From assembly GCA_003599885.1 (NCBI GenBank), contig QZKW01000083.1, positions 1-64,000 on the forward strand: 64,000 bases of DNA, read 5' to 3'. This stretch comes from Desulfobacteraceae bacterium. Lineage in GTDB: Bacteria; Desulfobacterota; Desulfobacteria; Desulfobacterales; Desulfosalsimonadaceae. Shown here piece after piece: positions 11,756 to 63,240 of the stretch. The notes under the pieces were generated by a model. The model did no database searches. It was not told the DNA's origin and saw nothing but the letters and a program-made list of their open reading frames with translations. The first letter of the stretch is position 1; each line of letters begins with the position of its first letter. The translations under genes and the position numbers were made by a program.

Positions 11756-11811
11756 GTGAATTTTAAATACAGCAAGTTATTCCAAAGAGAGACGGCTGAG
11801 GCAAGTGCCTT

Positions 11812-11833
11812 TTAAAAATATTAATATTTTTAA
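11812..11833. repeat. Perfect 22-bp A/T-rich palindrome upstream of the glycosyltransferase operon
   Basis: The left arm TTAAAAATATT is followed directly by its exact reverse complement. It lies 57-78 bases upstream of the ATG at 11755 and just past the GMC remnant stop at 11860. It could be an operator for the minus-strand operon; the sequence alone does not decide. Confidence 0.5.
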
Positions 11834-11859
11834 ACTGCTCGGGCGGTTTCATTATTCAG

Positions 11860-12003
11860 TTATTTAAATTGTTTTCTGGTGCGGTCTGCCATGGGGATTG
11901 TCAGCGCAATAACCTTAAGCATCGGGTTCGCCCGGCCGGAGGCATGAAAGAAAATCAAACTTCCGACAACAAACAGGTTCTCAACCCCTTGCACACCGGG
12001 CAT
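11860..12003 (-). pseudogene. GMC oxidoreductase, last ~47 residues only
   Basis: Reading the minus strand to TAA at 11860-11862 gives a stretch containing VQGVENLFVVGS, then ASGRANPMLKVIALTI and MADRTRKQFK. This matches the C-terminal signature of GMC-type flavin oxidoreductases (intact form roughly GIDNLYVVGSSVFPTSGHANPT followed by AL and AD). The catalytic-site region is worn and a TGA lies just upstream in the same frame, so this is a dead 3' remnant. It occupies part of an otherwise gene-free gap. Confidence 0.6.
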
Positions 12004-12094
12004 CCTTGTTTTTCATGTCAAGTATCGGTAAGAGAATTCTTGATGAATTGCCCATTTTTTTATAAGCTTAAAGCCAAGGCTGATGTCCCTGCAG

Positions 12095-12113
12095 TTTGTT
12101 TACCATAAACAAA
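12095..12113. repeat. Inverted repeat upstream of the membrane TPR gene
   Basis: TTTGTTTA and TAAACAAA are separated by CCA, giving 8-bp perfect arms 57 bases before the ATG at 12170. The compact dyad fits a dimeric repressor site. No regulator can be assigned. Confidence 0.45.
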
Positions 12114-12169
12114 TACGATAAAGAACAATCTTTTTTCAAATATATTATTAGCCCCTGTAAATATTGATT

Positions 12170-15626: not shown

Positions 15627-16066
15627 TCATTGAAGCATCTGTCCGGATCAATGCGCCGCTTCAGGCCGTATGGGATGTATTTTCAGATATTGAGAACTGG
15701 AATGAATGGAATCCGGTTTGCCGTGAATGCCGGTTTGAAGCAGGCAGTTCTTTGGTGAGGGGCGCGTGTATCTCTTTTTCTCTCAGTCCAATGATACTGC
15801 CGATTCGCATTGCCCCGGAGGTCACCCATTGCGAACCCGGCAAAAAGGTGGTCTGGGCGGGTGGCCGTTTGGGTATCCATGCGTCCCATGAATTTCTGTT
15901 TGAATTAATTGATGACGGGGTGGTGTTAAAAAGCACGGAATTTTTCAAAGGCCCGATGCTGATATTCGCCCGGCTGATGTTTCTGCCCGCCCGGTTGCAT
16001 TCCCTGACGCTTCGTCTGCTTAATGCCATTAAAAAGCAGGCGGAAGCGCGGTCGTCGGACCATTAA
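15623..16066 (+). CDS. SRPBCC (START-like) family protein
   Basis: About 147 residues. The start MIIEASVRINAPLQAVWDVF and FSDIENWNEWNPVCRECRF are classic for the SRPBCC/polyketide-cyclase fold, a small hydrophobic-ligand pocket. ATG 15623 overlaps the upstream stop by four bases. An in-frame upstream ATG at 15479 lies inside the SDR gene and is rejected because the fold begins at 15623. It probably works with the upstream SDR, possibly binding its lipid-like substrate; this is inference. Confidence 0.85.
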   Translation: MIIEASVRINAPLQAVWDVFSDIENWNEWNPVCRECRFEAGSSLVRGACISFSLSPMILPIRIAPEVTHCEPGKKVVWAGGRLGIHASHEFLFELIDDGVVLKSTEFFKGPMLIFARLMFLPARLHSLTLRLLNAIKKQAEARSSDH

Positions 16067-16122
16067 AATCAACCGGCTGAAGAGGTTGAAACCCGGTTGA
16101 TGCTTAACCTCGCTGCGGCATT

Positions 16123-16998
16123 TCATGGCCCCATGATGGGAAGATAGTTTGGCTTGAGTGAAATATGGACTTCCGGAAAATGGCCTGCGAAATCCCCGTC
16201 GAGCTGCATGGGAATGGGGGTATCGGCGGTGATGGTAACCTGTCTCCCTTTTAAATAGGCAACGTCCTTCAGTCGGGTGATCCGGCTGAACCGGGCCATG
16301 AAGAAATATTTCGCAATTGATTCCGCGTTTTCTTTCGGCAGCACGATAATATCCAGGTTGCCGCTGTCCACACCGGCGTCAAAGGCCATTTCACAAATCC
16401 CGCCGTAACTGCGCACGTTGTTCACCAGCACGATTTCACCCCTGGCACGGTGGCGGCCATCGACGGCCACATGAAACATCATGCGCCGACCGTCCCGAAG
16501 CGTGCGCAATGTCGGGAGGGCATAACTTAAGTTGCTGACTCTCCCGGTCCTGACAGCATTGAGCGCTTCCGTAACCTTGGCGTCAAAACCCGCGCCCGCG
16601 ATCATGATAAACTTCATACTGTTCATTTCCGCCAGATCCGCCATGATCACGCGCCCGTTTTCAATCAGATCCGCTGTTCCGGCAGGTGTTCGCGGCAGAC
16701 TAAGATCTTTGCCGAGAAGGTTCGCGTTTCCGGTCGGGAGCTGAGCGATGGGAATAGAAACGCCGGGGGGCAGTCCATTGATGATTTCATTGAAGGTTCC
16801 GTCGCCGCCGACAACAACGATTCGGTCAAAGTCATCCGGGCCGATTTCGGACACACGCTGTTTTCCGTCCCCGGCAAAACGGGTGAGGTAGGGTTCCGCC
16901 TGATGGCCCCTTCGGTTCAAAATGGCAGCCAGAAGACCGGCTCTTTTTCCGGCGTCCCCGCCGCTGGCGATCGGGTTTGCAATGATGAGTATGTTCAT
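16123..16998 (-). CDS. Diacylglycerol/lipid kinase family protein (YegS-like)
   Basis: The 291-residue product has the DAGK catalytic signature VVVGGDGTFNEIINGLPPG around residues 60-78 and PTGNANLLGKDLSLP around 87-100. It also has AGAGFDAKVTEALN and a C-terminal VHISLKPNYLPI. Such kinases phosphorylate diacylglycerol, sphingoid bases or related lipids with ATP at the membrane face. It is convergent with the SRPBCC gene and has no operon partner. Confidence 0.9.
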   Translation of the reverse strand: MNILIIANPIASGGDAGKRAGLLAAILNRRGHQAEPYLTRFAGDGKQRVSEIGPDDFDRIVVVGGDGTFNEIINGLPPGVSIPIAQLPTGNANLLGKDLSLPRTPAGTADLIENGRVIMADLAEMNSMKFIMIAGAGFDAKVTEALNAVRTGRVSNLSYALPTLRTLRDGRRMMFHVAVDGRHRARGEIVLVNNVRSYGGICEMAFDAGVDSGNLDIIVLPKENAESIAKYFFMARFSRITRLKDVAYLKGRQVTITADTPIPMQLDGDFAGHFPEVHISLKPNYLPIMGP

Positions 16999-17254
16999 GT
17001 TAAGGTCCGGTTACGGTTAAAATTAAGGGTATCTAAAGGACGGTGTATGCCCCTTCCCGGCGGATATCGTTTTAAAGTTCACTATAGTTATCGTTTTAAG
17101 TCAGGAAAAGCGTAAGATCAACCGATAAGTTGTGATTCTGATTTGTGCCTTCATTTCTTGATATTTCAACAGGCTATTGGTATGAGCGTTACATCGTGCA
17201 TATCTGCTGGGGGCGCTGGTTTTTAGCATGTTTAATGAAACAGGTTGATGATTG

Positions 17255-17638
17255 ATGATCAAACTCATGGTAATCGGCATTGGCGGCGCTGTTGGTTCCA
17301 TCCTTCGGTACCTGATCAGCGGGTATGTCCAGCAATTAACCAGAAGCGTCGGATTTCCCTATGGAACACTGGCGGTGAATGTGCTGGGGTGCTTTATCAT
17401 CGGGGCCCTGTTCCATTTGGCCGACACTCACGGCGTCTTTTCGTCGCAAACCCGGTCGTTTATGTTTATTGGCGTGCTGGGGGGACTGACGACATTTTCC
17501 ACTTTTGGCAATGAAACCATGATTCTGGTCAGGGACGCTCAGCATGGGCTGGCTTTGGCCAATATCGCGGCAAATGTCCTGTTGTGCCTGGGGGCTGTAT
17601 GGCTGGGGCGAGTGACCGCATTCTGGATGTGGAGGTAA
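17255..17638 (+). CDS. crcB: Fluoride channel CrcB/Fluc
   Basis: About 127 residues with four membrane helices. GGAVGSILRYLIS, then FPYGTLAVNVLGCFIIGAL and VLGGLTTFSTFGNETM give the conserved Asn and the TTFSTF phenylalanine pore motif of Fluc fluoride exporters, which act as antiparallel dimers. ATG 17255 is preferred over TTG 17252. Five bases after its stop begins a DUF190 gene whose GGAGGT spans the crcB stop, a common pairing. I see no fluoride riboswitch signature in the upstream 250 bases. Confidence 0.95.
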   Translation: MIKLMVIGIGGAVGSILRYLISGYVQQLTRSVGFPYGTLAVNVLGCFIIGALFHLADTHGVFSSQTRSFMFIGVLGGLTTFSTFGNETMILVRDAQHGLALANIAANVLLCLGAVWLGRVTAFWMWR

Positions 17639-17642
17639 CTGC

Positions 17643-17990
17643 ATGAAGCTGCCTGTAGAAGGATGCCTGCTCCGCATATTTATCGGTGAAAGTGATAAAT
17701 GCGACGGGAAACCCCTGTATGAGTGGATTGTTGTGAAAGCAAAAGAGCAGGGGCTGGCCGGGGCCACCGTATTGCGGGGCATGATGGGATTCGGTGCGAA
17801 CAGCCGGGTCATCCACACATTCAAAGTCATCCGGCTGTCCGAGGATATGCCAATCATCATTGAACTTGTCGATACCAGGGAGCGGCTGGAAGGATTTCTT
17901 GGCCTGATAGAGGATAAAATTGATGCGGGCCTGGTAACTCTGGAGAAAGCCGAAGTCCGGTTTTATCAAAGCAAAAAAACGGGGCAATAA
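17643..17990 (+). CDS. DUF190 domain protein, CrcB partner
   Basis: The 115-residue product matches DUF190: GCLLRIFIGESDKCDGKPLYEWIV, then GLAGATVLRGMMGFG and LPIIIE-like IIIELVDTRERLEGFL. The fold is PII-like, so a regulatory ligand-binding role is suspected. It often follows or is fused to CrcB. It is translated from a strong GGAGGT overlapping the crcB stop. Confidence 0.9.
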   Translation: MKLPVEGCLLRIFIGESDKCDGKPLYEWIVVKAKEQGLAGATVLRGMMGFGANSRVIHTFKVIRLSEDMPIIIELVDTRERLEGFLGLIEDKIDAGLVTLEKAEVRFYQSKKTGQ

Positions 17991-18031
17991 ATCCGGGTGA
18001 TTTTGTTTTTTGAGTAATGCCGGAAAACTGT

Positions 18032-18550
18032 TTATCGAAACGGCATCAGCGCCCTGAAAAATTTTATTGCTTCAGGCGCCGCTCCCCGCATATCCCACAC
18101 GTATTCCCCGATACCAAACTGTGCCAAAACGTATTTTCCCAAACCGAACTGCCCGATGGCGGTGAGGCCTGTTGCGAACTGTCCGATACCAAAGAGATAG
18201 GCGATTGCCAGCTGCCCCACAGCATAAACGCCGGTGGAAGCCTGGCCCAGGCCGAAAACCATTCCAACGGCGAGCTGGCCAATAGAGATCAGGCCGGCAG
18301 AGGCATGGCCGACAGCAATCCCTCCCACTGCCAGGCGGCCGATGGCAATAATTCCTTTTGCGATGATTCGTTTTCCGGTTTCCGGGCATTTCCCACGGGT
18401 ATAATGAATCAGCGGCAAACCCATCAGTTGTTTCCGGGTCATGAATTCTTCAAACAAATCGCCATTCGGATACACAAACCGCCGCCAGACGCCCAGCGGG
18501 GTTTCTGTAATTTGGTATTCAACAGATTCGAGCAGAAGATTTTTCATCAT
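18032..18550 (-). CDS. Glycine-rich decapeptide-repeat protein, unknown function
   Basis: About 172 residues from ATG 18550 (or 18547); an in-frame ATG at 18751 would add a hydrophobic, less conserved-looking leader. Residues from about 65 onward are built from eight consecutive 10-11-residue units of the form xxIGQLAVG, for example LISIGQLAVG, LTAIGQFGLG and KYVLAQFGIG. The regular small/hydrophobic pattern could form a narrow coil or beta-helix-like stack, perhaps within or against the membrane. The N-terminal 65 residues (LLLESVEYQITETPLGVWRRF) are non-repetitive. I do not recognise a named family. Confidence 0.6.
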   Translation of the reverse strand: MMKNLLLESVEYQITETPLGVWRRFVYPNGDLFEEFMTRKQLMGLPLIHYTRGKCPETGKRIIAKGIIAIGRLAVGGIAVGHASAGLISIGQLAVGMVFGLGQASTGVYAVGQLAIAYLFGIGQFATGLTAIGQFGLGKYVLAQFGIGEYVWDMRGAAPEAIKFFRALMPFR

Positions 18551-18817
18551 TGAATGGCCCGTAAAATTGTTTTTTTGCAGGGTTGAAAGATAAAGGGAAG
18601 TCATTTCTGACATACCGAAATATGCTGATAAAATCAATAAATTTAAAATTTTATATAGATGCAGCCGGATCGATGGAAGCAAAAATGCTAGTTTTTGGCT
18701 AGTATAAACCTCATATTCTTTTCGAAATGGGTATTCCTGAAAATGTGTCATAGTAGCACCATCAAAATGGGTTTAATTTTTCCCAGGCCTTAAATCATTT
18801 TCAGAAAGGTGATCCTC

Positions 18818-19900
18818 ATGTTTATGTTCAACTCTTCATCAAAAGCATTGAATTCGTCCAATTACATCCCGGCGCCAAACATTGCCGATGCATGGGTGTT
18901 GCATGACAGCAAGGAGAAAACAGAGAATTTGTCAGAAGCCTTTGCTTTCAGTTTCGAAGAGCGAATGACGTATATCAGAAAATATGGCAGCCATTGCATG
19001 TCATTTTCAACCCTGCAGCCGGGAATGAAATTTTTTGACGTTCCGGACAAGGGTTTTATCGCTTATATGCAGAAATGGGGCAGCCAGATGGTTTTGTCCG
19101 ATCCGGTATGTCATGAAAAAGACCGGGAACTCGTCATCAGTGAATTCCTGAAAAAATACAAACACACCGGATTTGTTCAGATCACCGAGCCGGTGGCGAA
19201 ACTGATGCATGAACGTTTTGGCTATTACGCCACCCAGTTTGGCATTGAAACCATCGTGGATCTGGAAACCTGGGACCTTTCAGGAAAGAAAAAACAGATA
19301 TTGCGCACTTCGCTGAATCAGAGCCGCAAAAACGGCATTGTCATCCGGGAATGCCGGGAGGAAACCCGGCACCATGAGCTTTCCAGACAGTGGATGTCCA
19401 CCCGGAAGATCAAAAACAGGGAAATCGGATTTTTGATCCGTCCCATGGTCATGGAGCACGAAGAGGAAACCCGCAAATTTTTCGCCTACCATGAGGACAA
19501 GCTCGTGGGGTTTGTTTTTTTTGATCCGATTTACAAGGACGGGAAAATCATCAGTTATGTTCCCAATATTTCCCGATTCAGCCACAGCTTCCGGCAGGGA
19601 ATTTTTTATTCACTGCTGGTTTACGCCATGGATACCTTTAAGAAAGAAGGCCTCAATGAAATAAATCTGGGGCTGTCGATTCTGGTGCTGGATGAGGAAG
19701 ACAAGCAATCCGAATCCTGGATATTAAAGAACATCGAACGGCTGATTTTCCGGTATGGAAATTTTATCTATAATTTTAAGGGCATTGCGTTTACCAAATC
19801 CCGGTTTAACGGAAAAACCAATAAATTCTATTCGGCACACCAATGGAGTCTGCCGGCCATCAAGCTGATTTCCATGTTCAAGCTGTCGAATGTCTTTTGA
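18818..19900 (+). CDS. Phosphatidylglycerol lysyltransferase C-terminal (DUF2156) GNAT-fold protein
   Basis: About 360 residues, starting at ATG 18818 behind AGGTGATCC. The protein is a stand-alone copy of the catalytic half of MprF-type enzymes. MTYIRKYGSHCMSFSTLQPG, then GSQMVLSDPVCHEKD and LRTSLNQSRKNGIVIRE fit the tandem GNAT fold of LPG_synthase_C. MprF transfers an aminoacyl group from tRNA to phosphatidylglycerol, but many stand-alone copies have unknown substrates. It lacks the membrane flippase half. A thioester-reductase-like gene follows 23 bases downstream on the same strand, suggesting a two-gene lipid pathway. Confidence 0.8.
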   Translation: MFMFNSSSKALNSSNYIPAPNIADAWVLHDSKEKTENLSEAFAFSFEERMTYIRKYGSHCMSFSTLQPGMKFFDVPDKGFIAYMQKWGSQMVLSDPVCHEKDRELVISEFLKKYKHTGFVQITEPVAKLMHERFGYYATQFGIETIVDLETWDLSGKKKQILRTSLNQSRKNGIVIRECREETRHHELSRQWMSTRKIKNREIGFLIRPMVMEHEEETRKFFAYHEDKLVGFVFFDPIYKDGKIISYVPNISRFSHSFRQGIFYSLLVYAMDTFKKEGLNEINLGLSILVLDEEDKQSESWILKNIERLIFRYGNFIYNFKGIAFTKSRFNGKTNKFYSAHQWSLPAIKLISMFKLSNVF

Positions 19901-19923
19901 TTCTGCACCATCAAGGAGGAGCT

Positions 19924-21234
19924 ATGATTTACTTTGTCACGGGCATTACCGGCACTGTTGTTCCAGTTGTCGTTGAAGACTTGATGAAAAAGGATCCGGA
20001 TGCGGCATTTTATTTTGCGATCCGAAAAGATAAAAAAGGAAACGGCATCCAGGCCCGATTTGAATCGGTTGTTGATTCTCTGGACCTTGATATTCCGACC
20101 CGAAGAAAACTTGCGGAGCGGTCCCGGCTGGTTGAAATTAATGTGGAGAAGGAAAGACTGGGCATCGATCCGAAATTATATTCAGAAATAATTGAAAAAA
20201 CAGAAAAAATCCTTCATGGCGCGGCAGATGTCCGGTTTGATCAGCCTTACGAAAAAATCCGGATTTCGAATGTGGTGTTTTCTCAAAAAATTTACGATTT
20301 GTTTGATTCAATCAAACAGCACCGCGAGACCTACGCCAAAAACAAACCCACACTCTATTATATTTCAACCGGTTATGCCTATGGGATTCACAAAAAACCC
20401 ATTCCGGAGGATTTCCCGGAATTCCATCCGGGAAAACCCGACAATACCTATGCTCAAACCAAGGCCGAAGCAAAGATTTTTATGCTGGATAAAATCAACC
20501 GGTGCAAGGACTCCATTGTTATTTTTGAGCCCACCATCATTGGCGGTTCCGCCCGGACCGGCCGAACCAAGACATATAATCTTCACTATATCGTGATGAT
20601 GCTCGGGTATATGGGAAAACTTCCCTTTCTGACCGCGCCGGAAAATCAGCTGGACATCGTTCCGGTGGACTGGGTGGCGGCGGTTATTTCCGATATCATG
20701 GCCGGAGATCAATACCATCAAGGGGTTGTGCGGCTGGCCAGCGGAGCCGGGGGGGTTCCAGTGAAAACCCTGCATGATGTGGGATACAATTATTATGTAA
20801 CTCATGACCCGGTTCCGGGGCATGTGATACCCAAGATCCGCTTTGTCCCCTGCTGGTTTTTTTATTCGATGATCAATGTTCAGAAAATTTTTTATCAGGC
20901 CATGTATTTTTGCACCCGTCAAAAGCGGTTCCGCAAAATGGCCAAGGGCATCAGCCTGCTGGAAGGATATTTCCCGTATATCACCCGTTCAAAAGTGTTT
21001 GAAAATTCCCGGAGCATGGAACTGATTCAAAAATATACGAATTGTTCATCTGCCCCAACAATGCAGGATATCAGGGACAAAGATGGGCAGGTGATTCAAA
21101 AAGGGTATTTTGGAAAAATACTAGCCGATACCCTGGAAACCGGCTGGGGCGGGATGGTGGATTTCAAGCGTCTGGAAAAAAAGACTGCCGAATACAAGAG
21201 CCCCCAGGCGGCATTGATCTCTTCCAGAAAATAA
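19924..21234 (+). CDS. Thioester-reductase/fatty acyl-CoA reductase-like SDR (NAD_binding_4)
   Basis: About 436 residues from ATG 19924, preceded by AAGGAGGAG. Residues 1-13 hold the cofactor motif (FVTGITGTVV). YAQTKAEAKIFM supplies the YxxxK pair after TGYAYG (Ser/Thr region). EPTIIGGSARTGRTK and LDIVPVDWVAAVI match extended SDRs that reduce acyl thioesters to aldehydes or alcohols. The C-terminal ~150 residues have no assignable fold. It ends in a strong terminator. Pairing with the GNAT gene suggests that one modifies and the other reduces a fatty-acyl or aminoacyl lipid. Confidence 0.8.
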   Translation: MIYFVTGITGTVVPVVVEDLMKKDPDAAFYFAIRKDKKGNGIQARFESVVDSLDLDIPTRRKLAERSRLVEINVEKERLGIDPKLYSEIIEKTEKILHGAADVRFDQPYEKIRISNVVFSQKIYDLFDSIKQHRETYAKNKPTLYYISTGYAYGIHKKPIPEDFPEFHPGKPDNTYAQTKAEAKIFMLDKINRCKDSIVIFEPTIIGGSARTGRTKTYNLHYIVMMLGYMGKLPFLTAPENQLDIVPVDWVAAVISDIMAGDQYHQGVVRLASGAGGVPVKTLHDVGYNYYVTHDPVPGHVIPKIRFVPCWFFYSMINVQKIFYQAMYFCTRQKRFRKMAKGISLLEGYFPYITRSKVFENSRSMELIQKYTNCSSAPTMQDIRDKDGQVIQKGYFGKILADTLETGWGGMVDFKRLEKKTAEYKSPQAALISSRK

Positions 21235-46826: not shown

Positions 46827-47309
46827 TCACGGATGGCAGCTGTTTTTTTCTTTTCCGCCTTTAAATTCCTGGAGCTTTTCCACATGGGTTTCTTCTTCGG
46901 CAATGATATGGCGTATGTTTTCTTTCGCCTCCTCGTCCGGTATAAAAGCCATCAGGATATCGTAGAAAAGAATGGTGTCTCTTTCAAATTCAATAAAAAC
47001 ATCCATCAGCTCACGAACATTGCGGACAGCGGCAAAATCCACGTCTTTGAGTGAAAAGGCCTGATCGCCCAGAAAATCATCAACCAAAGACTTGTTCATC
47101 GCTTTTAACGATTCATTGTCCTCTATAACGACCGCTGTGCCTCTAAGCGCGGAAAACCATTTTGCGTGGCGGCCCTCCTCCTCTGCCATCCATTCCAGCA
47201 ACTGTTTCAGGCTGGCATCACTTACAGACTCCAGAGCAGACCGGTAAATCTGCTCTCCGTTCTTCTCAAGCTGAACTGCCATATCAATGACTTCGGAAAT
47301 TGAAAACAA
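46827..47309 (-). CDS. Ferritin-like (rubrerythrin-type) di-iron protein
   Basis: About 160 residues. Start is probably TTG 47309, with AAGGAG six bases upstream; ATG 47348, overlapping the hslO stop as ATGA, would add 13 residues. Helices carry QLEKNGEQIYRSAL (E), EEEGRHAKWF (E/H), FIEFERDTILFYDIL (E) and AEEETHVEKLQEF (E/H), the four-helix di-iron ligand set. There is no rubredoxin domain. It is cotranscribed with hslO, giving a redox-defence operon. Confidence 0.8.
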   Translation of the reverse strand: MFSISEVIDMAVQLEKNGEQIYRSALESVSDASLKQLLEWMAEEEGRHAKWFSALRGTAVVIEDNESLKAMNKSLVDDFLGDQAFSLKDVDFAAVRNVRELMDVFIEFERDTILFYDILMAFIPDEEAKENIRHIIAEEETHVEKLQEFKGGKEKNSCHP

Positions 47310-47347
47310 TGCGCACTCCTTTTTACGGCCGGTTTCTGGTGTGATCA

Positions 47348-48184
47348 TCAATGATACACGGATGCATGTTCACCCAAATCCTTTTCCGTGACCTGATAAG
47401 CCGTCTTGCAATATTCGCACACCACTTCAAGAACCTCCTTGTCCGGCGAAAACAAATTTTCACCACTGGTCCGGACAAATTTCTTCACATTTTCAATCAT
47501 CTGCTCCTTCGAACACCCGCACGCAAAACGGACCGGTCTTTCGGCCAGATATTTAAATCCGATCTCTTGTAATTCCGCCTGGATGCCCTTCGGATCTGTC
47601 AGTCCTTTCGACATAACGGCTTTCAGCGGAAAAACGGTTTCTTCAAATGCTGCCATCAAATCCGTCGGCTCCTCGCTTGATGACAAAGGCAATTGATGGA
47701 GCATGAAGCTTTGATCGCTGTCTTCCGATACGAATATCCGGCTGTTGACCTGATAGGACTGAGACAATACCCGGTTTATAATGTCATCCATGCCGACCCC
47801 CTGCAGTTCAATGGTTGACTGGTAGGGCGTTTCCGCGTGGGGAAGGAATTTCACCAGCCGCACCCGGCCGGTGATGCTTTCTGCGGCCAGGTGCGGCTCA
47901 TCGGAATAGAGCATGCCCCGCATCAGCCCGTTGGTGTTCATTTCGATTTTCAGCCGAAAATACGGGGATTCCGAATCCACGTAAAAACAAAAATATTCCC
48001 CGTGCTTTAAAAGCCCCAGCATGAGCTGAACGCTGAGGACTGCGGACCGGAAACAGGAAAACCCGCCGGCTTTGAGATTGTGCATCAGGACCAGGTCGTG
48101 AATGAGCTGCTGACCTTCAAGAAAGTACAGGGCGAATTTCTTGTCCTGACTGATATACGTTAACAAACGGCTTTGGTTGAGCAT
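47348..48184 (-). CDS. hslO: Redox-regulated chaperone Hsp33
   Basis: The 278-residue protein has the Hsp33 layout: a large N-terminal substrate-binding domain and a C-terminal zinc switch with ACGCS (C222, C224) and CEYC (C256, C259). Oxidation of these cysteines releases zinc and activates holdase function. LQGVGMDDIINRVLSQSY is a family-like helical region. It lies upstream of the ferritin-like gene with a four-base ATGA overlap, so they are co-produced. Confidence 0.9.
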   Translation of the reverse strand: MLNQSRLLTYISQDKKFALYFLEGQQLIHDLVLMHNLKAGGFSCFRSAVLSVQLMLGLLKHGEYFCFYVDSESPYFRLKIEMNTNGLMRGMLYSDEPHLAAESITGRVRLVKFLPHAETPYQSTIELQGVGMDDIINRVLSQSYQVNSRIFVSEDSDQSFMLHQLPLSSSEEPTDLMAAFEETVFPLKAVMSKGLTDPKGIQAELQEIGFKYLAERPVRFACGCSKEQMIENVKKFVRTSGENLFSPDKEVLEVVCEYCKTAYQVTEKDLGEHASVYH

Positions 48185-53632: not shown

Positions 53633-56600
53633 TTACCGGGTTCTTATGGGGAACGGCGTCGCATTCACCCATGCGGATGAACCCGATGCGTTAAATGATT
53701 GAACACGGAAATAATAGTCCCGGTTACGTCCAAGGACGCCACTGTTAAAAGTGGTAGTGTTCGCCCCGACGGTTCTCGTGACCACAGCGCTCGTAAATGC
53801 CGCGTTTCTGGCCATTTGGATTCTAAAGTTGGTTTCATTGTTTGAGTTGTCCGTCCACCTGACCGTGCAGCGGGCATCGTTTCCGGTGGTCCTTGATGTT
53901 ACTGTGACATTGGACGGAGGCGCCGGAACAAGGGATGCGGTCACGGCAACCGTGGCCGTGTTGGACCAGGGCGATGACGCGGGGCCGTTGACGGCTTTCA
54001 CCCGGTAGGCATAGGTGTTGCCGGGTGTTACCGCCGTGTCCGTATAGGTCACGCTGCCCGTAGTGACTCGCGGTCCGGGTGCGGCGATCTGGGCAAAAGC
54101 GCCGCCGTTAACGGCGCGCTCCAGGACAAAGCCGGTTTCATTAATCGCGTTGTCCATCCAGCTCACCAAGACCTGGGGGCCGGCCTGAACCGTCGCTGTC
54201 AGCGCGGTGGGCGCTGGCGGCGCGATCGCAACCATTATCGATGCGGTATTAGAGAACTCCGAAACCATGGTCGTGTTAGGGAACCCGATGGAAGGAGCGG
54301 CATAAATCGCCGTATCGCCCACCGTGTTGGATGCGAATATCCGATAGAAATACTCCTGGTTCACATCCCCGACGGTATCGGCGTATGTTGTGGTGCCGGG
54401 GGCGAGCGTGGCCAGGTCCGTCCACGGGCCGGCAGCAAATTCAGCCCGCTGTAAAGTGAAATGCGTCTCGTTCAGGGAGCTGTCAGTCCATTCCAGATTC
54501 ACCTGCGTACCGGCCCCGACGCCGCTTTGCGCGGCAGTCAGGTTCGCGGGCGTCCTCGGCCTGACGCCGACCGACTGCGGACGCATCATGTCCATTTCTT
54601 CATGGCTCAGGATATGGCAATGCCATACATACTCCCAGCCGAAGTTGATGAGACGGTTGGTGATGTTCACTGGATTTCCCAATGGATCAAATACTTGCAT
54701 GCCCATGGTCAATGGCGCATCTTCCGGCATCGTCGGATCCATCAGGCGGACGCTGTTGGGAAGATCCCACGGGATTCTGGGAATGAGCGGCCGCAGGGCA
54801 ACGATGGTGTCTTCCAGAGGGCTGACCCGCACCGTGTCCTTCCACCCCAATTCGTTCAGATCGGGTTTCCGGATGATGCCGTCCCAGCCAACCCGGTTGA
54901 TGAGTTGCACATCATAGAGATGGAAATGAATTGGGTGGGTGTCCACCCCGTTATGGGTGATCTTCCAGATCTGCGAGCCGTCGTCCGTCATGCTGATGGG
55001 CGCCAGCTCGACACCCTCCGGTAACTCGATGCCTCGGAGCACCTCCGTCGGCGGCATCCCGTATCCATATAAAATCATGTTCTGATTGCCCGCCTGCGCA
55101 TTCGGCGTCTCGAGTCCCAGAAATCCGCTCATCCGCCCATAGTCGCGTTCAAAGGCCTCACCCATCTCGTCCTGGATCATCTTGGGCTGGAAGGGCATGG
55201 TCAGTGTCGCACCCAAAAGGGTTTTAAACGTCAGGGACGTGTCAAAAATCTGCGCGAGTCCGGCCATCGGTCCATTATTCTGGAAACTGGTGCCGTAAGC
55301 CGAATTGTAAGCGCCTTGCCCCACGACAATCGGGTGCTGGCCGGACTCGAATACGCCCGAACCGTCCGCTTTATGGGCAAAGGCTGCCTGTAGCGCGCCT
55401 AAGTTGAAGCTTGGGGCGGGCGCCGCCGCCGCCACCTTGATCTGCATGACAGTCCGGGTGTTCGGGCCATAACCAGGCAGGGTCGACGGCGCACCGCCGG
55501 TATCCCTGTAGTCCCCGTTGCCGGTGTAATAATCATAGCGCGGGTCGCGCGCCGGGAAAGCTGCCGGTGCGTCATTATAGAGAATCAACGTCTGACCGGC
55601 ATAGGCGGAGAAGTCCACGATCACATCCGCCCGTTCCGCCGGGGCGATCAGCAGGGAATGCTGGTCCACATTACCGGCGTTGAACACGGTCGGGTCATTC
55701 ACCCAGGTGGTGGGATGGGCCGGAATAACCACCGGGGCCGGCAGGAATCCGCCTTCATTACCGATCTGGATCCAGTTCGGCCCTTCCGTACCCGCAACCG
55801 GAGTCGGGAACACCGTTGGATCTTCCAGTGCTTCCGCAACCTCTGCGGGATTCAACTGGACTTCGGTATCCGCCAGCGGATCGGCCATATATAGACTCAA
55901 ATTGAAGAAGCGGTCGTTGGCGGCATTCAGAACGCGGAAGCGGTAAGCCTTGGGCTCCACAGTAACCGTCGGGTAAGGAGTTCCGTTGACCATCGGCGTA
56001 TCCATGAACGCTTCCATGCCCATGGAGTTGAACGGTACGCCGGGCATCAGGGGCGGTTCACACCAACCGGCATCGGGATCACAGGCCGGGTCAAAATAAG
56101 GATTGTCAATCGGTCCGTATGCGACGCTCGATGTGGGCGGCCAGAACCAGGGGCCATAGGCCCAGCGGCCGAACTGGTTGACGCCGGAACTGTCGCCCGG
56201 GTTCTGGGCCGGTGAATAGACATGGGGCAGCCACAGGTTGCCGACGCCACCCCAGCGGGTCATATCCCAGGTTTCATCGGAGACAGCAAGCTGCGTCTCG
56301 CTCGGCACGAACGTCTTGTCCTGCACCACCAGCGGGATGGTGCTGTCAGAGCCGGGGATGAGCCCCTGATTGAGCAGCGCCTGCTCAGTATCGTCAGTAA
56401 TAATGTAGGGTGCGGCTTCGCCCGCATAGACGTTCAGGCGGGTAATGCCATAGGCGTGATCGTGGTAGAACATCAGCCGGGCGCTCTGCTGGTTGGTGTA
56501 ATAGAAAGTCATTTCCCCATCGTTTGGATCACCCGGATCATTCATGTCCGGAACGGGCATCACGCTGACGCCCTGCGGATACGGTGTATTTTCATTCGCC

Positions 56601-58687
56601 GGGGTGATCCACTGATGCGGGGTGCCGTCACTGATCCAGGGCGATATCCCGCCATGCAGGTGAAGGGTGGCCCGGTTTTCGGTGTAGCTTTCGTAGGGTT
56701 TCGGAATCATTCCGCTCATGGGATTCTGAGGATCCATTTCCTCCATGCCGCCCATCAATGGTCCCATGCCCGAACCCATGACCGTGGTGTCCACCGGAAG
56801 GAAAAGATTGCCGTCCACACCGGACGGAAGCAGGTTGTAGAATTTGATGCGTACCGGCCGGTTCTTGGTGGCAACGATTGTCGGCCCCAGGTAGTGGGGC
56901 GGTGTTACCCCTGTATACCCGATGATCGGATCGGATGTGCCATCCAGAAGCGTGTTGGATAATGGGGCCGCGCCCGGGACTACCCCTGTCGAAAGCTGCA
57001 CATAACCGCGCAGCAGGGTCGGGGGAAGGTCTGAGTGCATTTTTTCGCTGTACTGAACCACTGCGATTTCATAATAATCGGAACCCGGATAGGTGGTTTT
57101 GTCCGGAACGGCCACCGGAATGTACTGTCCGAGATTGTTTGCGCTTGCGGCGCCGAGGCCGGGCAGGGTGTCGACGAATTTACGGATGCCGCCGGAGGTC
57201 ATGGCATGAGCGCTCAGGTCGGCCGCGGGTGCGAAATAGTTCGCCGTCATTGCGTCCGCCACCAGTTGTTGGCCAATGCCTACCGCCAGAACGGAGGAAT
57301 TCCGCAAGTGGAGTCCGGCCCAGGTTCTGGCGTTCACGATTTCCGTTCGGAGATCATCCGCAGTGGCATAGTGCCGGGTTGTGCCGGTGATGCTGCTGTC
57401 CAGATCAATGGCGATATTGGGCGTGCCGAAGACCTGGGTGTAGACTTCGGCCTGAGCCGAAATAAAAGAGCCATGTCCCGCCACGTATTCAGGGAAGTTC
57501 GGGGTCATCACCAGCGGCATCCAGGTGGGATCAGCCACTGTCGCAGCATTGCCGTCGGTGTCGGCTCTCTGGATCGCTGTTACCGGCCGCCAAAGGTTAT
57601 AGAAATATTTGGCGTCAAACGTGGCGATCAGGCTGTCGGTGGCGGCCATGTTGCCCATGACCATCAGGCGGGCTGTGTCAAGCAGACTCAGGCCCCGGTT
57701 TGCGGCCTGCTGCCGGTAAGCGGCGTTGGTCTGTATGACCATGTTTGTTGTCCAGAATTTGGCTATTTCCGTCTGCTCCGCCGTCCGGGTCATACTCATG
57801 GCGCCGCCGATGTCCTTGACCTCGTTCAGATCCACTGCATATTCAGCGCTGTCGAGGGCCGGGGGAGGCACGGGGCGGTAGTCGTCCGGGTTGGATCGCA
57901 AAAACGGTGTCAATACGGCCATCCAGGGATCCATGGGGGGCGCGGGGGGCATCATCGTTGATTCCCAAACCCCCGGACCGGGAGCCGGCAATATGTAACC
58001 CCCATTTCCGCTGAGAACGTCGCCGGACCGGAGCGCGATAATCTCGTCGGCAGCGTCTTGGCCCACGGCGATCCCGTTTGTCTTGGCAGTGTTGTCGGGA
58101 ATCGCCGCAAGAGAGGCGTTGTACTTCCCTGTGAGGGCGGCTGACGGAAAATAATGGTTGAGTACGCCGTATGCGGCCGTCGCTACCGCAGCATCCCGTG
58201 AAGCGCCAGGATCGGCTGTCAATGTCGAGTTATAGGGTGCATACCCGCCCTCAATGGCCACCAGGGCGTTATAGACAGCACCCTGCACGTAGGACAGGTG
58301 GACAAATGCCGCTGACATTGAGGTTCCGCCCATCGGCATCGGCATTCCCTGCATGGGTGGGGGCTGGAGGATATCCTGGGCGATGACGTTCCACTCAGCC
58401 ACGATGTTGCCCGGCAGCGGGCTGTTGGCATAGTTCGGGTGGCTGAAATAATGCGGCGCGGTGCCTGGCATGGGCATGGCTGCCGCACCCGGCTCCTCCA
58501 GCAAAAAGCCGGCATCATCCGCACGTTCGGCGGCGGCTTGCCTGTCGGCCTGAGTGATTTTTTCTTTATTTTCGTTTCCCGGTTTTTTTGGGTTTTCGCT
58601 TTTGGCGAGAACCTGACCGGCTCCCCATAAAAATACAATTCCTATCAGAACCAAACTTAATACTCTACAAAGTTTGCGTTTTTTCAT
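53633..58687 (-). CDS. Secreted vanadium-haloperoxidase-like/multicopper oxidase/triple FN3 fusion protein
   Basis: 1684 residues from ATG 58687 (in-frame 58771 is rejected; a signal peptide MKKRKLCRVLSLVLIGIVFL starts here). Region A (about 60-540) has the haloperoxidase pocket: KYFYNLWRP (KxxxxxxRP), PEYVAGHGSF (PSGH with Ser to Ala) and ARTWAGLH (SRxxxxxH). Region B (about 590-1370) is a CotA-like multicopper oxidase with all four copper motifs: HLHGG, YHDHAYG, HPIHFH and WHCHILSHEEMDMM. Region C holds three FN3 domains (from about 1380, 1492, 1590). The only change from the vanadate set is Ser to Ala. It acts outside the cytoplasm, perhaps in metal or phenol oxidation. Confidence 0.9.
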   Translation of the reverse strand: MKKRKLCRVLSLVLIGIVFLWGAGQVLAKSENPKKPGNENKEKITQADRQAAAERADDAGFLLEEPGAAAMPMPGTAPHYFSHPNYANSPLPGNIVAEWNVIAQDILQPPPMQGMPMPMGGTSMSAAFVHLSYVQGAVYNALVAIEGGYAPYNSTLTADPGASRDAAVATAAYGVLNHYFPSAALTGKYNASLAAIPDNTAKTNGIAVGQDAADEIIALRSGDVLSGNGGYILPAPGPGVWESTMMPPAPPMDPWMAVLTPFLRSNPDDYRPVPPPALDSAEYAVDLNEVKDIGGAMSMTRTAEQTEIAKFWTTNMVIQTNAAYRQQAANRGLSLLDTARLMVMGNMAATDSLIATFDAKYFYNLWRPVTAIQRADTDGNAATVADPTWMPLVMTPNFPEYVAGHGSFISAQAEVYTQVFGTPNIAIDLDSSITGTTRHYATADDLRTEIVNARTWAGLHLRNSSVLAVGIGQQLVADAMTANYFAPAADLSAHAMTSGGIRKFVDTLPGLGAASANNLGQYIPVAVPDKTTYPGSDYYEIAVVQYSEKMHSDLPPTLLRGYVQLSTGVVPGAAPLSNTLLDGTSDPIIGYTGVTPPHYLGPTIVATKNRPVRIKFYNLLPSGVDGNLFLPVDTTVMGSGMGPLMGGMEEMDPQNPMSGMIPKPYESYTENRATLHLHGGISPWISDGTPHQWITPANENTPYPQGVSVMPVPDMNDPGDPNDGEMTFYYTNQQSARLMFYHDHAYGITRLNVYAGEAAPYIITDDTEQALLNQGLIPGSDSTIPLVVQDKTFVPSETQLAVSDETWDMTRWGGVGNLWLPHVYSPAQNPGDSSGVNQFGRWAYGPWFWPPTSSVAYGPIDNPYFDPACDPDAGWCEPPLMPGVPFNSMGMEAFMDTPMVNGTPYPTVTVEPKAYRFRVLNAANDRFFNLSLYMADPLADTEVQLNPAEVAEALEDPTVFPTPVAGTEGPNWIQIGNEGGFLPAPVVIPAHPTTWVNDPTVFNAGNVDQHSLLIAPAERADVIVDFSAYAGQTLILYNDAPAAFPARDPRYDYYTGNGDYRDTGGAPSTLPGYGPNTRTVMQIKVAAAAPAPSFNLGALQAAFAHKADGSGVFESGQHPIVVGQGAYNSAYGTSFQNNGPMAGLAQIFDTSLTFKTLLGATLTMPFQPKMIQDEMGEAFERDYGRMSGFLGLETPNAQAGNQNMILYGYGMPPTEVLRGIELPEGVELAPISMTDDGSQIWKITHNGVDTHPIHFHLYDVQLINRVGWDGIIRKPDLNELGWKDTVRVSPLEDTIVALRPLIPRIPWDLPNSVRLMDPTMPEDAPLTMGMQVFDPLGNPVNITNRLINFGWEYVWHCHILSHEEMDMMRPQSVGVRPRTPANLTAAQSGVGAGTQVNLEWTDSSLNETHFTLQRAEFAAGPWTDLATLAPGTTTYADTVGDVNQEYFYRIFASNTVGDTAIYAAPSIGFPNTTMVSEFSNTASIMVAIAPPAPTALTATVQAGPQVLVSWMDNAINETGFVLERAVNGGAFAQIAAPGPRVTTGSVTYTDTAVTPGNTYAYRVKAVNGPASSPWSNTATVAVTASLVPAPPSNVTVTSRTTGNDARCTVRWTDNSNNETNFRIQMARNAAFTSAVVTRTVGANTTTFNSGVLGRNRDYYFRVQSFNASGSSAWVNATPFPIRTR

Positions 58688-58807
58688 GACATTTTTCCTT
58701 TTTAGTGGTGATGTGGGCTTAAACTTTATTTTTAAATGCCGTAAAATGAATCTGACCGTCAATCGTATCAACCACCTCCTTTCATACGATGAAGGTTTTT
58801 ACATCCG

Positions 58808-59164
58808 TCAGGTTGCAAACAGTTCATCCATCACGCCCAGATTCAGGGCGTTTTTGGAAAAATGATAATCCGCGCCGCTTTTTATTGCGGCATTCTCATA
58901 TTCCGCACCATTTTCAGACGACAGGGCCACAATGATTGCGGAAGGGCATTTTTTTCTTGCGCGTTCAATGAGTTCAAGGCTTTTTTCAGTGGAAAAAGAA
59001 ATGTCTGAAAATATGATGTCCGGAATCAATTCATTTATTTTTTCAATGGCTTCTCTTGCATTGGCGGCTTCCTGAAACACAATGGCCGAATACTTGGAGT
59101 TCATGAGGCTTTTGAGGGCATTACGGAAATTGTGATTATTTTCTATGATCAGAACCTTGCTCAT
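58808..59164 (-). CDS. Stand-alone response regulator receiver domain
   Basis: The 118-residue protein is one receiver fold: LIIENNHNFRNAL (acidic pair position E-N), IIFSDISFSTEK with the phosphoacceptor Asp, ALSSENG and HFSKNA with the conserved Lys. It has no output domain. It lies 121 bases upstream of the fusion-oxidase gene on the same strand, so it may be cotranscribed or relay phosphate in the neighbouring two-component system. Confidence 0.8.
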   Translation of the reverse strand: MSKVLIIENNHNFRNALKSLMNSKYSAIVFQEAANAREAIEKINELIPDIIFSDISFSTEKSLELIERARKKCPSAIIVALSSENGAEYENAAIKSGADYHFSKNALNLGVMDELFAT

Positions 59165-59413: not shown

Positions 59414-60076
59414 ATGACAGAAAAACGCCACCGCCTGTTGCTGGCCGAAGATCATAAGATCCTGAGGGAAGGTCTGAAAGCGCTGTTATCCGTTGCCCCG
59501 GATATTGAAGTGATTGGTGAGGCGGAAGATGGACGCATGGCCATCAAATATGCGGAAATGTATTCGCCGGATCTGATTCTGATGGATCTTTCAATGCCCA
59601 AAACAGGAGGTCTGGAGGCTATCCGGGAGATTAAGCGGACCCAGCCCGGCATCAAAATCTTGGTTCTGACCGTGAATGACAGCGAGGAATATGTTCAGGC
59701 GGCTTTACAGGCGGGCGCTGACGGATATGTGCTTAAAGACGCCGACCGGCAGGAGCTTTTGAGCGCCATCAGGCATGTCCTGAATGGAAAACGGTATTTA
59801 AGCCCGGGGATTTCGGGAAGGATTATTGAAGGATATTTATCATCCGGAAACGGGGTATTGAAAACAAAAACGGCATGGGATGGTCTCACTCACCGGGAGC
59901 GGGAAATCCTTAAACTGATTGCCGAAGGTTATCAAAACAGGAACATCGCCGATTACCTGTGCGTCAGCCTCAAGACGGTTGAAAAACACCGTGCGAACCT
60001 GATGAAAAAGCTGAACATACACAACGCTGCCCGCCTTACCGCCTATGCCCTGGAAAAAGGCCTGATAACGCGATAG
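59414..60076 (+). CDS. NarL/FixJ-type response regulator
   Basis: The 220-residue protein has a receiver (LLLAEDHKILREGLKALL, phosphoacceptor in DLILMDLSMPKTGG, Lys in YVLKDAD). After it a LuxR-type HTH follows (LTHREREILKLIAEGYQNRN and SLKTVEKHRANLMKKLNI). ATG 59414 follows CAGGAG. The histidine kinase gene converges with it 22 bases away and has the HisKA_3 type that usually pairs with this class. Confidence 0.9.
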   Translation: MTEKRHRLLLAEDHKILREGLKALLSVAPDIEVIGEAEDGRMAIKYAEMYSPDLILMDLSMPKTGGLEAIREIKRTQPGIKILVLTVNDSEEYVQAALQAGADGYVLKDADRQELLSAIRHVLNGKRYLSPGISGRIIEGYLSSGNGVLKTKTAWDGLTHREREILKLIAEGYQNRNIADYLCVSLKTVEKHRANLMKKLNIHNAARLTAYALEKGLITR

Positions 60077-60098: not shown

Positions 60099-62951
60099 TT
60101 AAATCTTCCAGGTCACCCGGATCACGGCGCCCCTGGCGGGGGCGGCGTTAATGGAAAACGTACCCCCGGAAAGCCTGGCCCTTTGCTCCATGCTGGTTAG
60201 ACCGATGCCCTTTTCCCTGGGGAGGGCTTCGGGCGTCTCATCAACATTAAATCCAATTCCGTTGTCATAAACCTGTAGATCTATGTTGTCAGGCCCCTGA
60301 TCCAGAAGAACGGAAACGGCGCTCGCCCTGCTGTGCTTGGAAACGTTATTCAACGCTTCCTGTAAAATTCGAAAGATGACAACCTTTAAACTTTCAAAAA
60401 TCTCCCCATCAACCAAATTTAGTTTTTTCTGGACCACGATATGCTCATGGGTTTTTTCGAATTCCTGGCACAGCCAGGAAATCGCCGCTTTAAGACCCAG
60501 GTCGTCCAGGATAGCCGGGCGCATATTTTTAATGATATTGCGTACTTCTTCAACCGATGCCTTTGCCAGTGAAAGAATGGAACGGATGGATTCCATTGAT
60601 GCTTCGGGCCTGTTGTTTTCCATCTGGGCAATCGCCGCGTCTGACCAGACCTTGATGGCGCTCAGGGTTTGGGCAAGCCCGTCATGAAGCTCCTCGCCGA
60701 TTCGCCGTCTTTCTTCTTCATAGGATTGAATCAGCTTGGCGGAAAGATCTTTCAATTCCGTCTCTGATTTTAGAAGATTGTCCTCCAATATTTTACGTTC
60801 CTCTATCTCATTGACCAGAAGGAGATTAAATTCCGAAAGGGCTTTTGTTCTCTCCTTCACCCGTATTTCGAGTTCATCATTGGACTTACGAAGGGCGTCG
60901 GTAATAAGCCACCGGTTAATCGCCAGGGCATAATACTGCGCCAGGCGGCTGACAGCCGCCACATCCCTTTCCTCAAAAGGATCCTGTTTATTGCCCAAGG
61001 CAATCTGGCCGACCAGTTTTTCATTGAACAATACCGGAATGGACAGGAAATTTTTAATGGGGCGGTGGCCCTCGGGAAGTCCCTGCTGAGATGGATGCTC
61101 TGCCGGTGAGTTGGTGAAAAAAGGTTTCAGGGTATTGAGTGCATATCCCCAAAGACCCGGGTAAGAACCATCCGCCCCCACTGGGAAGACGATGGTCTTG
61201 TTTTCTTTGCATTCCGCCATCATTTCCGAAAAGGAGTGGCTCGTATTGATCCCGGTTTCAGGGTCTATGATGGAAACAAATCCATGTTCGCTATGGGTAA
61301 TCAGCTTGCCTTTTTCAAGGATTTTACTGCCGATCTCCTGCATGGAAATTTCAGGTGAAATCAAAGGAATATATAATTCCGACAAAGCGGAGTTAACGCC
61401 CAGTTCCCATATAAGGTCTCGTTGAACCTTTCTTGAGGCGGTGATGTCATCACCGGAACTGAGCGTGCCGGTGATGACGCCGTTTTCATCTCTTAAAATG
61501 CTGTTGTGCCATAAAATCAATTTTTCATCATTTTTACTGCTTAAAATTAAATTTTCATAAAATTCAGTATATTGAATCTCTCCGGACATGATATCCCGAA
61601 AAACCGATTTGGCTGCTTTCCGGTCTTTTTCCGGCACAAAGGTGTCAAACCATTTTTTCCCGACAATGTCTTTTTCATCGGTTTCCAGAAGTTCGCATCC
61701 CTTTTTGTTGATCAAGGCAACCGTTGTGTCCGGATTTAAAACAATAACAATGCTGCCGACAATATCCAGATAAAGCCGGGCCTTGTCTCTCTCCTGACGG
61801 CATTGGAGCTCGATTTGTCTGATTCCGGTAATATCCCTGAAAATGGTCAATTTCGAAACCGAGCCATCGACGTGGTGTACCGGCGAATGGGTAACATGAT
61901 AATAACGACCGTCCTTCTGCCGGAACGTCTCCTTGATTTCAAGCCCTCCCTGGGTGATTTTATGGAAATCGCAGAATTCACATTTCCGGTCATAGCCGTT
62001 TAATGCCTTATAGCAATGCTCCCCTATTGCTTCGCGCCCAATCCAGGATATCATCGCCGGATTCATGTAAGATACCGTAAAGTCGCTCGAAGCGATATAG
62101 ACCGGGTCCTGCATGGCCTCCATCATTGAGCGGTATCTGGCTTCACTCTCACTTAAGGCCTTCTCATTATTTTTGAGATTCCGGAAGAGGACGTCGTAAG
62201 GTCTTTGCAGGCCGGTTTCGATAATGGCCTTATAAATAAGGTAGAAGGAAATGATTTTAAAATAGTGCCCCATAAAATTGGAAAGGCTGTAAGGGTGGGC
62301 ATACAGTGTTAAGCTGACCTCACTGACGATGGTTAAGCAGAGGGAAGCCATGATATACCTTAAAACGGTTTCATCAAATGCCTGCCTGTTTTTAAAAAAC
62401 ATCCCGATGGATAACGCAAGCATCAGGCAGTTGACGTATTCCGCAATCTTCTTGAACGGGGTCAGCCCGGATCCCTCAACAAAGCAGACGGGAAAGACCT
62501 TCCAGTAGAAAATAGAGGCGATCAAAAACAGCGTCAGACCGATGTACCCCAAAAGAATGGTCTTTGCCGGAACCTTTCGATGAATAAAAAACGGTGCGAG
62601 AAGAAATGAAATGCTTTGCAGGAGCCTTGCTGAAACCCACAATTGGGTGGGCAGGTTGGCATCGCCGGTTTTAAAAACCCCCATTCCTTTATAGGCCAGG
62701 AGGTGAAGCAGGTCGATGGCGCCGATAAACAGATACGCAATGCCGATAATCAAAAAAGCATTATTGTCCAGGTTTTTCCGGGTATTCCAGGCAATGATGA
62801 AAATCGCAATGGAAACCACAATGCCGAACATTTCGGCCAGGGTGTGGTAAAGGAGGTAATTGTTCAGGCCGATCAGATAAACCATCAGGAAAATCAGGGT
62901 GCAGAAGATAATTTGCAGAAACAGGCTTTTGCTTGCAACCCTTTCGTTCAT
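60099..62951 (-). CDS. MASE3-PAS-PAS-GAF HisKA_3-type histidine kinase
   Basis: About 950 residues from ATG 62951 (AAGGAGT upstream; frame runs to 63017). Seven to eight membrane helices (residues 1-270) match MASE3 (WNTRKNLDNNAFLIIGIAYL, LLHLLAYKGMGVF). Two PAS domains follow: one near 290-400 with CYKALNGYDRKCEFCDFH, one near 410-520. A GAF domain is near 545-710. The kinase core has EEERRRIGEELHDGLAQTLS (His in HDG) near 755 and the ATPase motifs DNGIGFN and GIGLTSMEQRA near 890-920. It probably senses a membrane or redox signal and phosphorylates the NarL regulator. Confidence 0.9.
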   Translation of the reverse strand: MNERVASKSLFLQIIFCTLIFLMVYLIGLNNYLLYHTLAEMFGIVVSIAIFIIAWNTRKNLDNNAFLIIGIAYLFIGAIDLLHLLAYKGMGVFKTGDANLPTQLWVSARLLQSISFLLAPFFIHRKVPAKTILLGYIGLTLFLIASIFYWKVFPVCFVEGSGLTPFKKIAEYVNCLMLALSIGMFFKNRQAFDETVLRYIMASLCLTIVSEVSLTLYAHPYSLSNFMGHYFKIISFYLIYKAIIETGLQRPYDVLFRNLKNNEKALSESEARYRSMMEAMQDPVYIASSDFTVSYMNPAMISWIGREAIGEHCYKALNGYDRKCEFCDFHKITQGGLEIKETFRQKDGRYYHVTHSPVHHVDGSVSKLTIFRDITGIRQIELQCRQERDKARLYLDIVGSIVIVLNPDTTVALINKKGCELLETDEKDIVGKKWFDTFVPEKDRKAAKSVFRDIMSGEIQYTEFYENLILSSKNDEKLILWHNSILRDENGVITGTLSSGDDITASRKVQRDLIWELGVNSALSELYIPLISPEISMQEIGSKILEKGKLITHSEHGFVSIIDPETGINTSHSFSEMMAECKENKTIVFPVGADGSYPGLWGYALNTLKPFFTNSPAEHPSQQGLPEGHRPIKNFLSIPVLFNEKLVGQIALGNKQDPFEERDVAAVSRLAQYYALAINRWLITDALRKSNDELEIRVKERTKALSEFNLLLVNEIEERKILEDNLLKSETELKDLSAKLIQSYEEERRRIGEELHDGLAQTLSAIKVWSDAAIAQMENNRPEASMESIRSILSLAKASVEEVRNIIKNMRPAILDDLGLKAAISWLCQEFEKTHEHIVVQKKLNLVDGEIFESLKVVIFRILQEALNNVSKHSRASAVSVLLDQGPDNIDLQVYDNGIGFNVDETPEALPREKGIGLTSMEQRARLSGGTFSINAAPARGAVIRVTWKI

Positions 62952-63240
62952 TTTAGCAGACTCCTTTTGGAATGGTGCGGAAAGATGAGCGACCGCTTTT
63001 TGGCACTGAAGACCCAAACATGCTTGCCAAAGTGCTCTCCGCCAAAAAACACTTCTTATTGCACAATGAAAATATTCGGCTTTCCAGAAAAAAATTAGCC
63101 CACCGCAAAAATAGCGTTTTCCCCATCATCGTTATTTTCTGCCGCTCATCAAAACCAAAAAAAATTTATTCCACTTCTGGGATAGCCGCCGGCCATAGCA
63201 TCCTGCATTCCCGGAAAAATGTAACGATGAATCCTTAAAA

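Follow-up and report, generated by a model that had tools for sequence, protein, structure and literature searches.

The gene at positions 53633–58687 (minus strand) of the DNA analysed here, a stretch of 64,000 nucleotides called the window below, probably encodes a secreted CotA/OmpB-like multicopper oxidase (MCO). This oxidase carries a vanadium-haloperoxidase (VHPO) domain nested in a slot that was probably filled by cassette exchange, and an O2-using and a peroxide-using oxidase would thus be tethered on the same chain.

Gene Structure and Domain Order

The gene, its ends and its C-terminal part were located as follows.

53633–58687, minus strand: whole gene, secreted protein of 1684 aa plus stop, VHPO nested in an MCO followed by FN3
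58604–58687, minus strand: predicted signal peptide, aa 1–28 (MKKRKLCRVLSLVLIGIVFLWGAGQVLA), read by eye from the sequence
53636–54553, minus strand: three FN3 repeats, aa 1379–1684 (Pfam fn3, 6e-10)

The continuous frame reported in the preliminary description was confirmed. It runs intact from the ATG at 58687 to the stop at 53633–53635 (1684 codons), with an AAGGA site immediately upstream of this candidate start codon. In-frame TTG codons at 58771 and 58762, further upstream and preceded by an extended Shine-Dalgarno-like sequence, are alternative candidates for the start. The sequence ATGAAAGGAGGTGGTTGA (58768–58785), found once in the genome, lies about 85 bases upstream of the ATG and holds this Shine-Dalgarno-like sequence and a five-codon frame. 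The region upstream of the gene gave no Rfam match to an RNA element, and no tRNA was found within the window.

Secretion, proposed earlier, is consistent with the predicted signal peptide. The three FN3 domains proposed earlier can be recognised by a recurring W(T/M)DxxxNExxF motif; Pfam gives two separate stretches. The order MCO then FN3 was common to the relatives. On the whole protein, Pfam returned Cu-oxidase_2 (6.9e-11) and fn3, with a weak match to VCPO_2nd (0.003). Both enzyme families named at the outset, VHPO and MCO, were recovered by sequence and predicted-structure matches. An assembly chimera was ruled out by intact full-length relatives in many genomes of several phyla. The GC content of the gene (0.588, GC3 0.694) was at the top of the range of the window, only about 2 SD out, and base composition is only suggestive of a recent transfer.

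The Oxidase Core and Its Insertion Slot

58412–58456, minus strand: conserved 5′ flank of the slot, aa 78–92 (PHYFSHPNYANSPLP), present in most MCO relatives with any insert
57098–57196, minus strand: conserved 3′ flank of the slot and start of the MCO core, aa 498–530 (SGGIRKFVDTLPGLG...GQYIPVAVPD)
54554–57196, minus strand: CotA-type MCO core, aa 498–1378 (phmmer and Foldseek matches to CotA)
56648–56662, minus strand: copper motif HLHGG, aa 676–680 (HLH 676–678), His invariant in 64 aligned MCO cores
56456–56464, minus strand: copper motif HDH, aa 742–744, invariant in the 64 cores
54920–54937, minus strand: copper motif HPIHFH, aa 1251–1256, His invariant in the 64 cores
54584–54622, minus strand: copper motif HCHILSHEEMDMM, aa 1356–1368, near-invariant block in the 64 cores

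The oxidase part matched CotA/bilirubin oxidase with an E-value of 2.9e-38 in phmmer, and its predicted structure (pTM 0.86) matched CotA in Foldseek with an E-value of 3e-37 and a TMt of 0.76–0.79. The protein has the four copper motifs and the three-cupredoxin fold of CotA-type MCOs. All four motifs, already seen in the preliminary description, were borne out, every oxidase ligand being invariant among the 64 aligned cores. A Met-rich stretch was also present in the core (aa 637–651). CotA laccase and bacterial bilirubin oxidase (1gsk, 7z5p) resemble this core and its copper motifs, but they are about 510 residues long, compared to about 880 here, and they have neither the VHPO insert nor FN3 domains.

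The VHPO part had first been described as an N-terminal fusion partner, and this has to be corrected. In the relatives, PHYFSHPNYANSPLP (or PHYFGPYPNWANSPL) was followed by a variable stretch, then by SGGIRKFVDTLPGLG and the CotA-like core. Since the material between the fixed flanks varies, the VHPO domain is nested in a fixed slot, which is empty or otherwise filled in relatives. The slot was nearly empty (4–33 residues) in 11 proteins. Elsewhere among the tree members it contained GxGYT repeats (26 proteins), a module of about 185 aa (14), both (11) or a VHPO domain (10). The eight intact VHPO inserts that were measured spanned 406–437 aa. A head-to-tail fusion was ruled out, the PHYFSHPNYANSPLP and SGGIRKF flanks being nearly adjacent in the empty-slot members.

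Slot classes were set by length and motif patterns, with four proteins reassigned by hand, and were then checked by BLASTP. In the all-against-all comparison every VHPO insert matched every other VHPO insert, and every 185-aa module matched every other 185-aa module; no similarity was detected between VHPO inserts and the other slot classes. Examples of the 185-aa module and of the GxGYT repeats were seen in L046 (8274–8825) and similar loci, in L041 (8301–9302) and in L059. These non-VHPO modules gave no family match in Pfam (L046, L041) or NCBIfam (L046, L059). The MCO thus resembles a common frame in which one insert can be exchanged for another.

Fold and Pocket of the Inserted Domain

57197–58411, minus strand: inserted VHPO domain, aa 93–497 (fold, phmmer, clade with other inserts)
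58316–58366, minus strand: Met-rich loop, aa 108–124 (QPPPMQGMPMPMGGTSM)
57584–57610, minus strand: vanadate-pocket motif K360-x6-R367-P368, invariant in the 11 inserted or free copies and in 32/32 VHPO rows
57473–57481, minus strand: A403-G404-H405, G404 and H405 invariant in the 11 inserted or free copies
57308–57328, minus strand: R454-x5-H460, invariant in 32/32 VHPO rows

The identity of this domain is secure despite the weak Pfam match, as judged from four observations. Searched against solved structures, the N-terminal part matched PDB 4cit, the vanadium-dependent iodoperoxidase of Zobellia galactanivorans, with an E-value of 2.2e-19 in phmmer. It was 60–79% identical to the other inserted copies. 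The predicted structure had pLDDT values of mostly 90–98. Finally, the model aligned to 4usz with a Z-score of 39.7 over 379 residues (VIA, 2.7 Å, aa 92–490, model range 31–429), and it shows the complete two-helical-bundle VHPO fold. The Zobellia enzyme (4cit/4usz) resembles the domain over its whole fold (21% identity, 379 residues), and its K, R, G, H, R and H pocket residues align with those of the window domain; it differs in being a stand-alone protein, not nested in another enzyme, and in having Ser (TSGH) where the window domain has Ala. For class A acid phosphatases, in which one half of this fold recurs, the Z-score was about 15. A class A acid phosphatase or PAP2 protein was rejected as the identity of the domain: a single compact bundle of about 220 aa would be expected, and the domain here is larger and two-bundled.

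The order of the motifs KxxxxxxRP, (A)GH and ARxxxxxH stood up to examination, with K360, R367 and P368, then A403-G404-H405, then R454 and H460. The pocket residues K360, R367, G404, H405, R454 and H460 were all present and were invariant in the inserted lineage. Their convergence in space is predicted from the whole-domain structural match and the residue alignment. H405 corresponds to the acid-base residue, and H460 to the vanadate ligand, of known VHPOs. The change from Ser to Ala noted earlier is real: A403 stands where the vanadate-contacting Ser of (P/T)SGH is expected. In the inserted and free copies this position was Ala, with Thr in one of them, and it was also variable in related stand-alone proteins (PSAH, PGAH, PAAH). 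With Ala there, one contact to vanadate is missing, and the domain may therefore oxidise halides poorly or not at all. A keyword search found no paper on a Ser-to-Ala mutant of the fungal enzyme.

We describe the domain as a VHPO-fold relative and a candidate haloperoxidase. Some VHPO homologues, for example NapH3, catalyse non-halogenating chemistry, and NapH3 was among the homologues matched. Among stand-alone relatives from Chloroflexota (L125–L141) the SGH motif was variable (PGAH, PSAH, PSGY), which suggests that many of them may not be classic haloperoxidases. Phe357, three positions before K360, was likewise invariant in the inserted lineage; in other VHPOs the position three before the pocket Lys affects halogen preference (PMC11871015).

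The Met-rich loop was found in every inserted copy covering the region and in the free copy, and in none of the stand-alone VHPOs aligned. Judged from these alignments, it is a marker of the inserted lineage. That it binds metal is a guess.

Distribution

The VHPO-in-MCO arrangement is not unique to the window. The searches recovered about 10 more inserted copies, along with a single free copy. A scan of named genomes gave 79 loci, from the best 80 of 231 relatives, so that the counts are lower bounds. Among these best 80, the VHPO carriers belonged to Anaerolineales/Anaerolineae, Syntrophobacteraceae, a Planctomycetes genome and others, nearly all of them metagenome-assembled. In an even sample of 395 genomes from the phylum of the window, matches at E ≤ 1e-20 were present only in the genome of the window and in one other. 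In 400 sampled Chloroflexota the VHPO-bearing type was present only in the seed genome itself, and ten other genomes of the same genus as the window contained no VHPO-bearing oxidase. The inserted VHPO type is rare.

The Anaerolineaceae contig L038 showed a tandem of VHPO-bearing oxidases (7989–13169 and 15922–21165) with a di-haem peroxidase gene between them. The two host cores of this pair were not sisters in the oxidase tree. A VHPO-type oxidase with a frame broken in the VHPO part was seen in L043, on a contig labelled Treponema denticola (SulCav metagenome; the label looks doubtful).

Host and Insert Phylogenies

The tree of VHPO sequences grouped the ten inserted copies with the free copy in one clade (99/97), to the exclusion of 21 stand-alone proteins. 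In the oxidase tree (81 rows) the VHPO carriers were scattered, and the slot contents required 19 changes. A single clade of VHPO-carrying hosts was rejected (dlnL 394.6, AU p = 3.5e-6). The VHPO data rejected the host topology (dlnL 95, p 6.2e-7); the MCO data rejected the VHPO topology only marginally (p 0.047). With one VHPO clade, scattered hosts and conflicting trees, cassette exchange is the simplest reading: the VHPO would have entered the MCO family once, then moved around, and in one case been freed. The pattern strongly supports an exchange of slot contents among MCO genes from different phyla, and recombination within the conserved flanks may have been the mechanism.

The free copy (L004/L116/L153) came from G012, a genome from the same family as that of the window, where a gene of its own encodes it as a secreted protein of about 452 aa. 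It was 75% identical to the window insert, had the same Ala and Met-rich loop, and was the sister of the window insert (97/94) with a similar signal peptide. The sister position, the loop and the signal peptide indicate that it was probably freed from an oxidase. No related MCO was found in the G012 genome (87% complete), and no MCO remnants were found at a convincing score beside the free gene. The free gene followed a desulfoferrodoxin (superoxide reductase) gene at a distance of about 75 bp. In L153 the run 8385–11719 read hemerythrin, GGDEF, superoxide reductase and VHPO, and genes for rubrerythrin and flavodoxin lay on the opposite side. This redox neighbourhood suggests that the protein helps to deal with oxygen species, but it is a single case, and superoxide reductase usually resides in the cytoplasm.

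Genomic Neighbourhood

58808–59164, minus strand: receiver-only response regulator (Pfam Response_reg 1.8e-14), same strand, 120 bp upstream of the gene
59414–60076, plus strand: NarL/LuxR-type response regulator (Pfam)
60099–63017, minus strand: MASE3-PAS-GAF histidine kinase with HisKA_3 (Pfam)

A two-component system flanked the window gene, and similar systems were found near several relatives. Such systems are common. About 5 kb from the VHPO-MCO gene, a ferritin-/rubrerythrin-like gene overlapped an Hsp33 gene (46827–48184), and it is possible that the two form a redox-stress pair.

In about ten loci, which differed in their slot contents, the oxidase was followed by a secreted CCP_MauG di-haem peroxidase-like gene, among them L034 (6727–8133), L035 (12697–14415), L038 (13265–14731), L041, L042, L046 and L099. 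A di-haem cytochrome c peroxidase-like gene stood after the MCO in three VHPO-bearing loci, which fits a redox role, but a search of the genome of the window gave no such gene, which counts against it.

Discussion

By description, the closest named group is that of OmpB and MofA. OmpB of Geobacter sulfurreducens is described as an MCO associated with the outer membrane that has EXXE motifs and an FN3 domain, and OmpB and MofA (of Leptothrix) as extracellular multicopper oxidases (PMC5566968). The window protein is also a predicted secreted MCO with FN3 and EXXE, the latter being weakly specific. Geobacteraceae MCOs with FN3 lie in the same MCO family tree, which makes kinship to OmpB/MofA-type oxidases likely; this link goes through other Geobacteraceae members, OmpB itself being compared by description. 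Unlike that of the window protein, the slot of the Geobacteraceae relatives is empty or filled with something other than a VHPO. A mofC-like haem (cytochrome) partner gene would be expected in an OmpB/MofA cluster, but the genome of the window (G000) gave no CCP_MauG match. A keyword search of open-access papers found no description of a VHPO inside a multicopper oxidase and no well-studied MCO family already described with a VHPO domain. This lack of a published description is weak evidence of novelty.

We propose that the gene product is a secreted, probably surface-associated CotA/OmpB-like MCO with a fixed N-terminal insertion slot, which in the lineage of the window holds a complete two-bundle vanadium-haloperoxidase domain. 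The MCO core would use O2 to oxidise a reductant outside the cell, such as phenolics, Mn(II) or Fe(II), and the tethered VHPO would oxidise a halide, most likely iodide or bromide, with H2O2. The two oxidases would be displayed together, probably for protection or oxidation at oxic–anoxic boundaries. The two enzymes most likely share a chain for the sake of tethering, rather than of obligatory channelling. The cooperation between the two sites suggested in the preliminary description has so far found no support. The MCOs with other inserts and the free VHPO of G012 argue against obligatory cooperation and for tethering. Most of the other contents are not recognisable enzymes, and the slot may accordingly serve binding or display.

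In one alternative, the inserted domain has lost its haloperoxidase function and works in binding or display, as would the other slot contents, or else is a phosphatase of the PAP2 type. The other modules are repeats or unnamed domains, the Ser of the pocket is Ala, and half of the fold is also found in class A acid phosphatases. However, the remaining pocket residues are invariant in the 11 copies across phyla, which a mere spacer would not require, and the full two-bundle fold scores far above the phosphatases; we hold this alternative to be unlikely, while the most serious of those considered. Chemical coupling of the two sites, with halogen or metal species passing between them and copper held by the Met-rich loop, seems very improbable. 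It would fit the single chain, the restriction of the loop to the inserted lineage and the Met-rich stretch of the MCO core, but the loop is retained in the free copy, which has no MCO, and most MCOs of the family have no VHPO.

The history of the insert could also be one of plain descent, with a single entry of the VHPO into the MCO family, in a deep ancestor, a patchiness due to repeated loss or replacement, and no movement of the cassette between hosts. The inserted VHPOs do form one clade, always in the same slot and of similar length. Yet plain descent predicts agreeing trees, and both the rejection of the host topology by the VHPO data and the 19 changes of slot content stand against it, so that it is disfavoured and rather improbable. 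A tethered VHPO in a slot subject to cassette exchange remains our preferred reading. Its stronger form would make the slot a dedicated device for swapping domains between phyla, and the VHPO version a true dual-metal oxidase with O2 and H2O2 sites acting jointly on halides, metals or phenols; we consider this form doubtful, with perhaps a small chance of being correct.

MCOs of the OmpB/MofA group have links to the cycling of Fe and Mn, and vanadium haloperoxidases have links to the chemistry of halogens. An enzyme nested in another enzyme, at a slot that also accepts unrelated modules, offers a natural system for the study of domain insertion and cassette exchange in a secreted protein. It also brings a candidate haloperoxidase to lineages of the subsurface and of sediments that abound in anaerobes and from which haloperoxidase chemistry is not expected.
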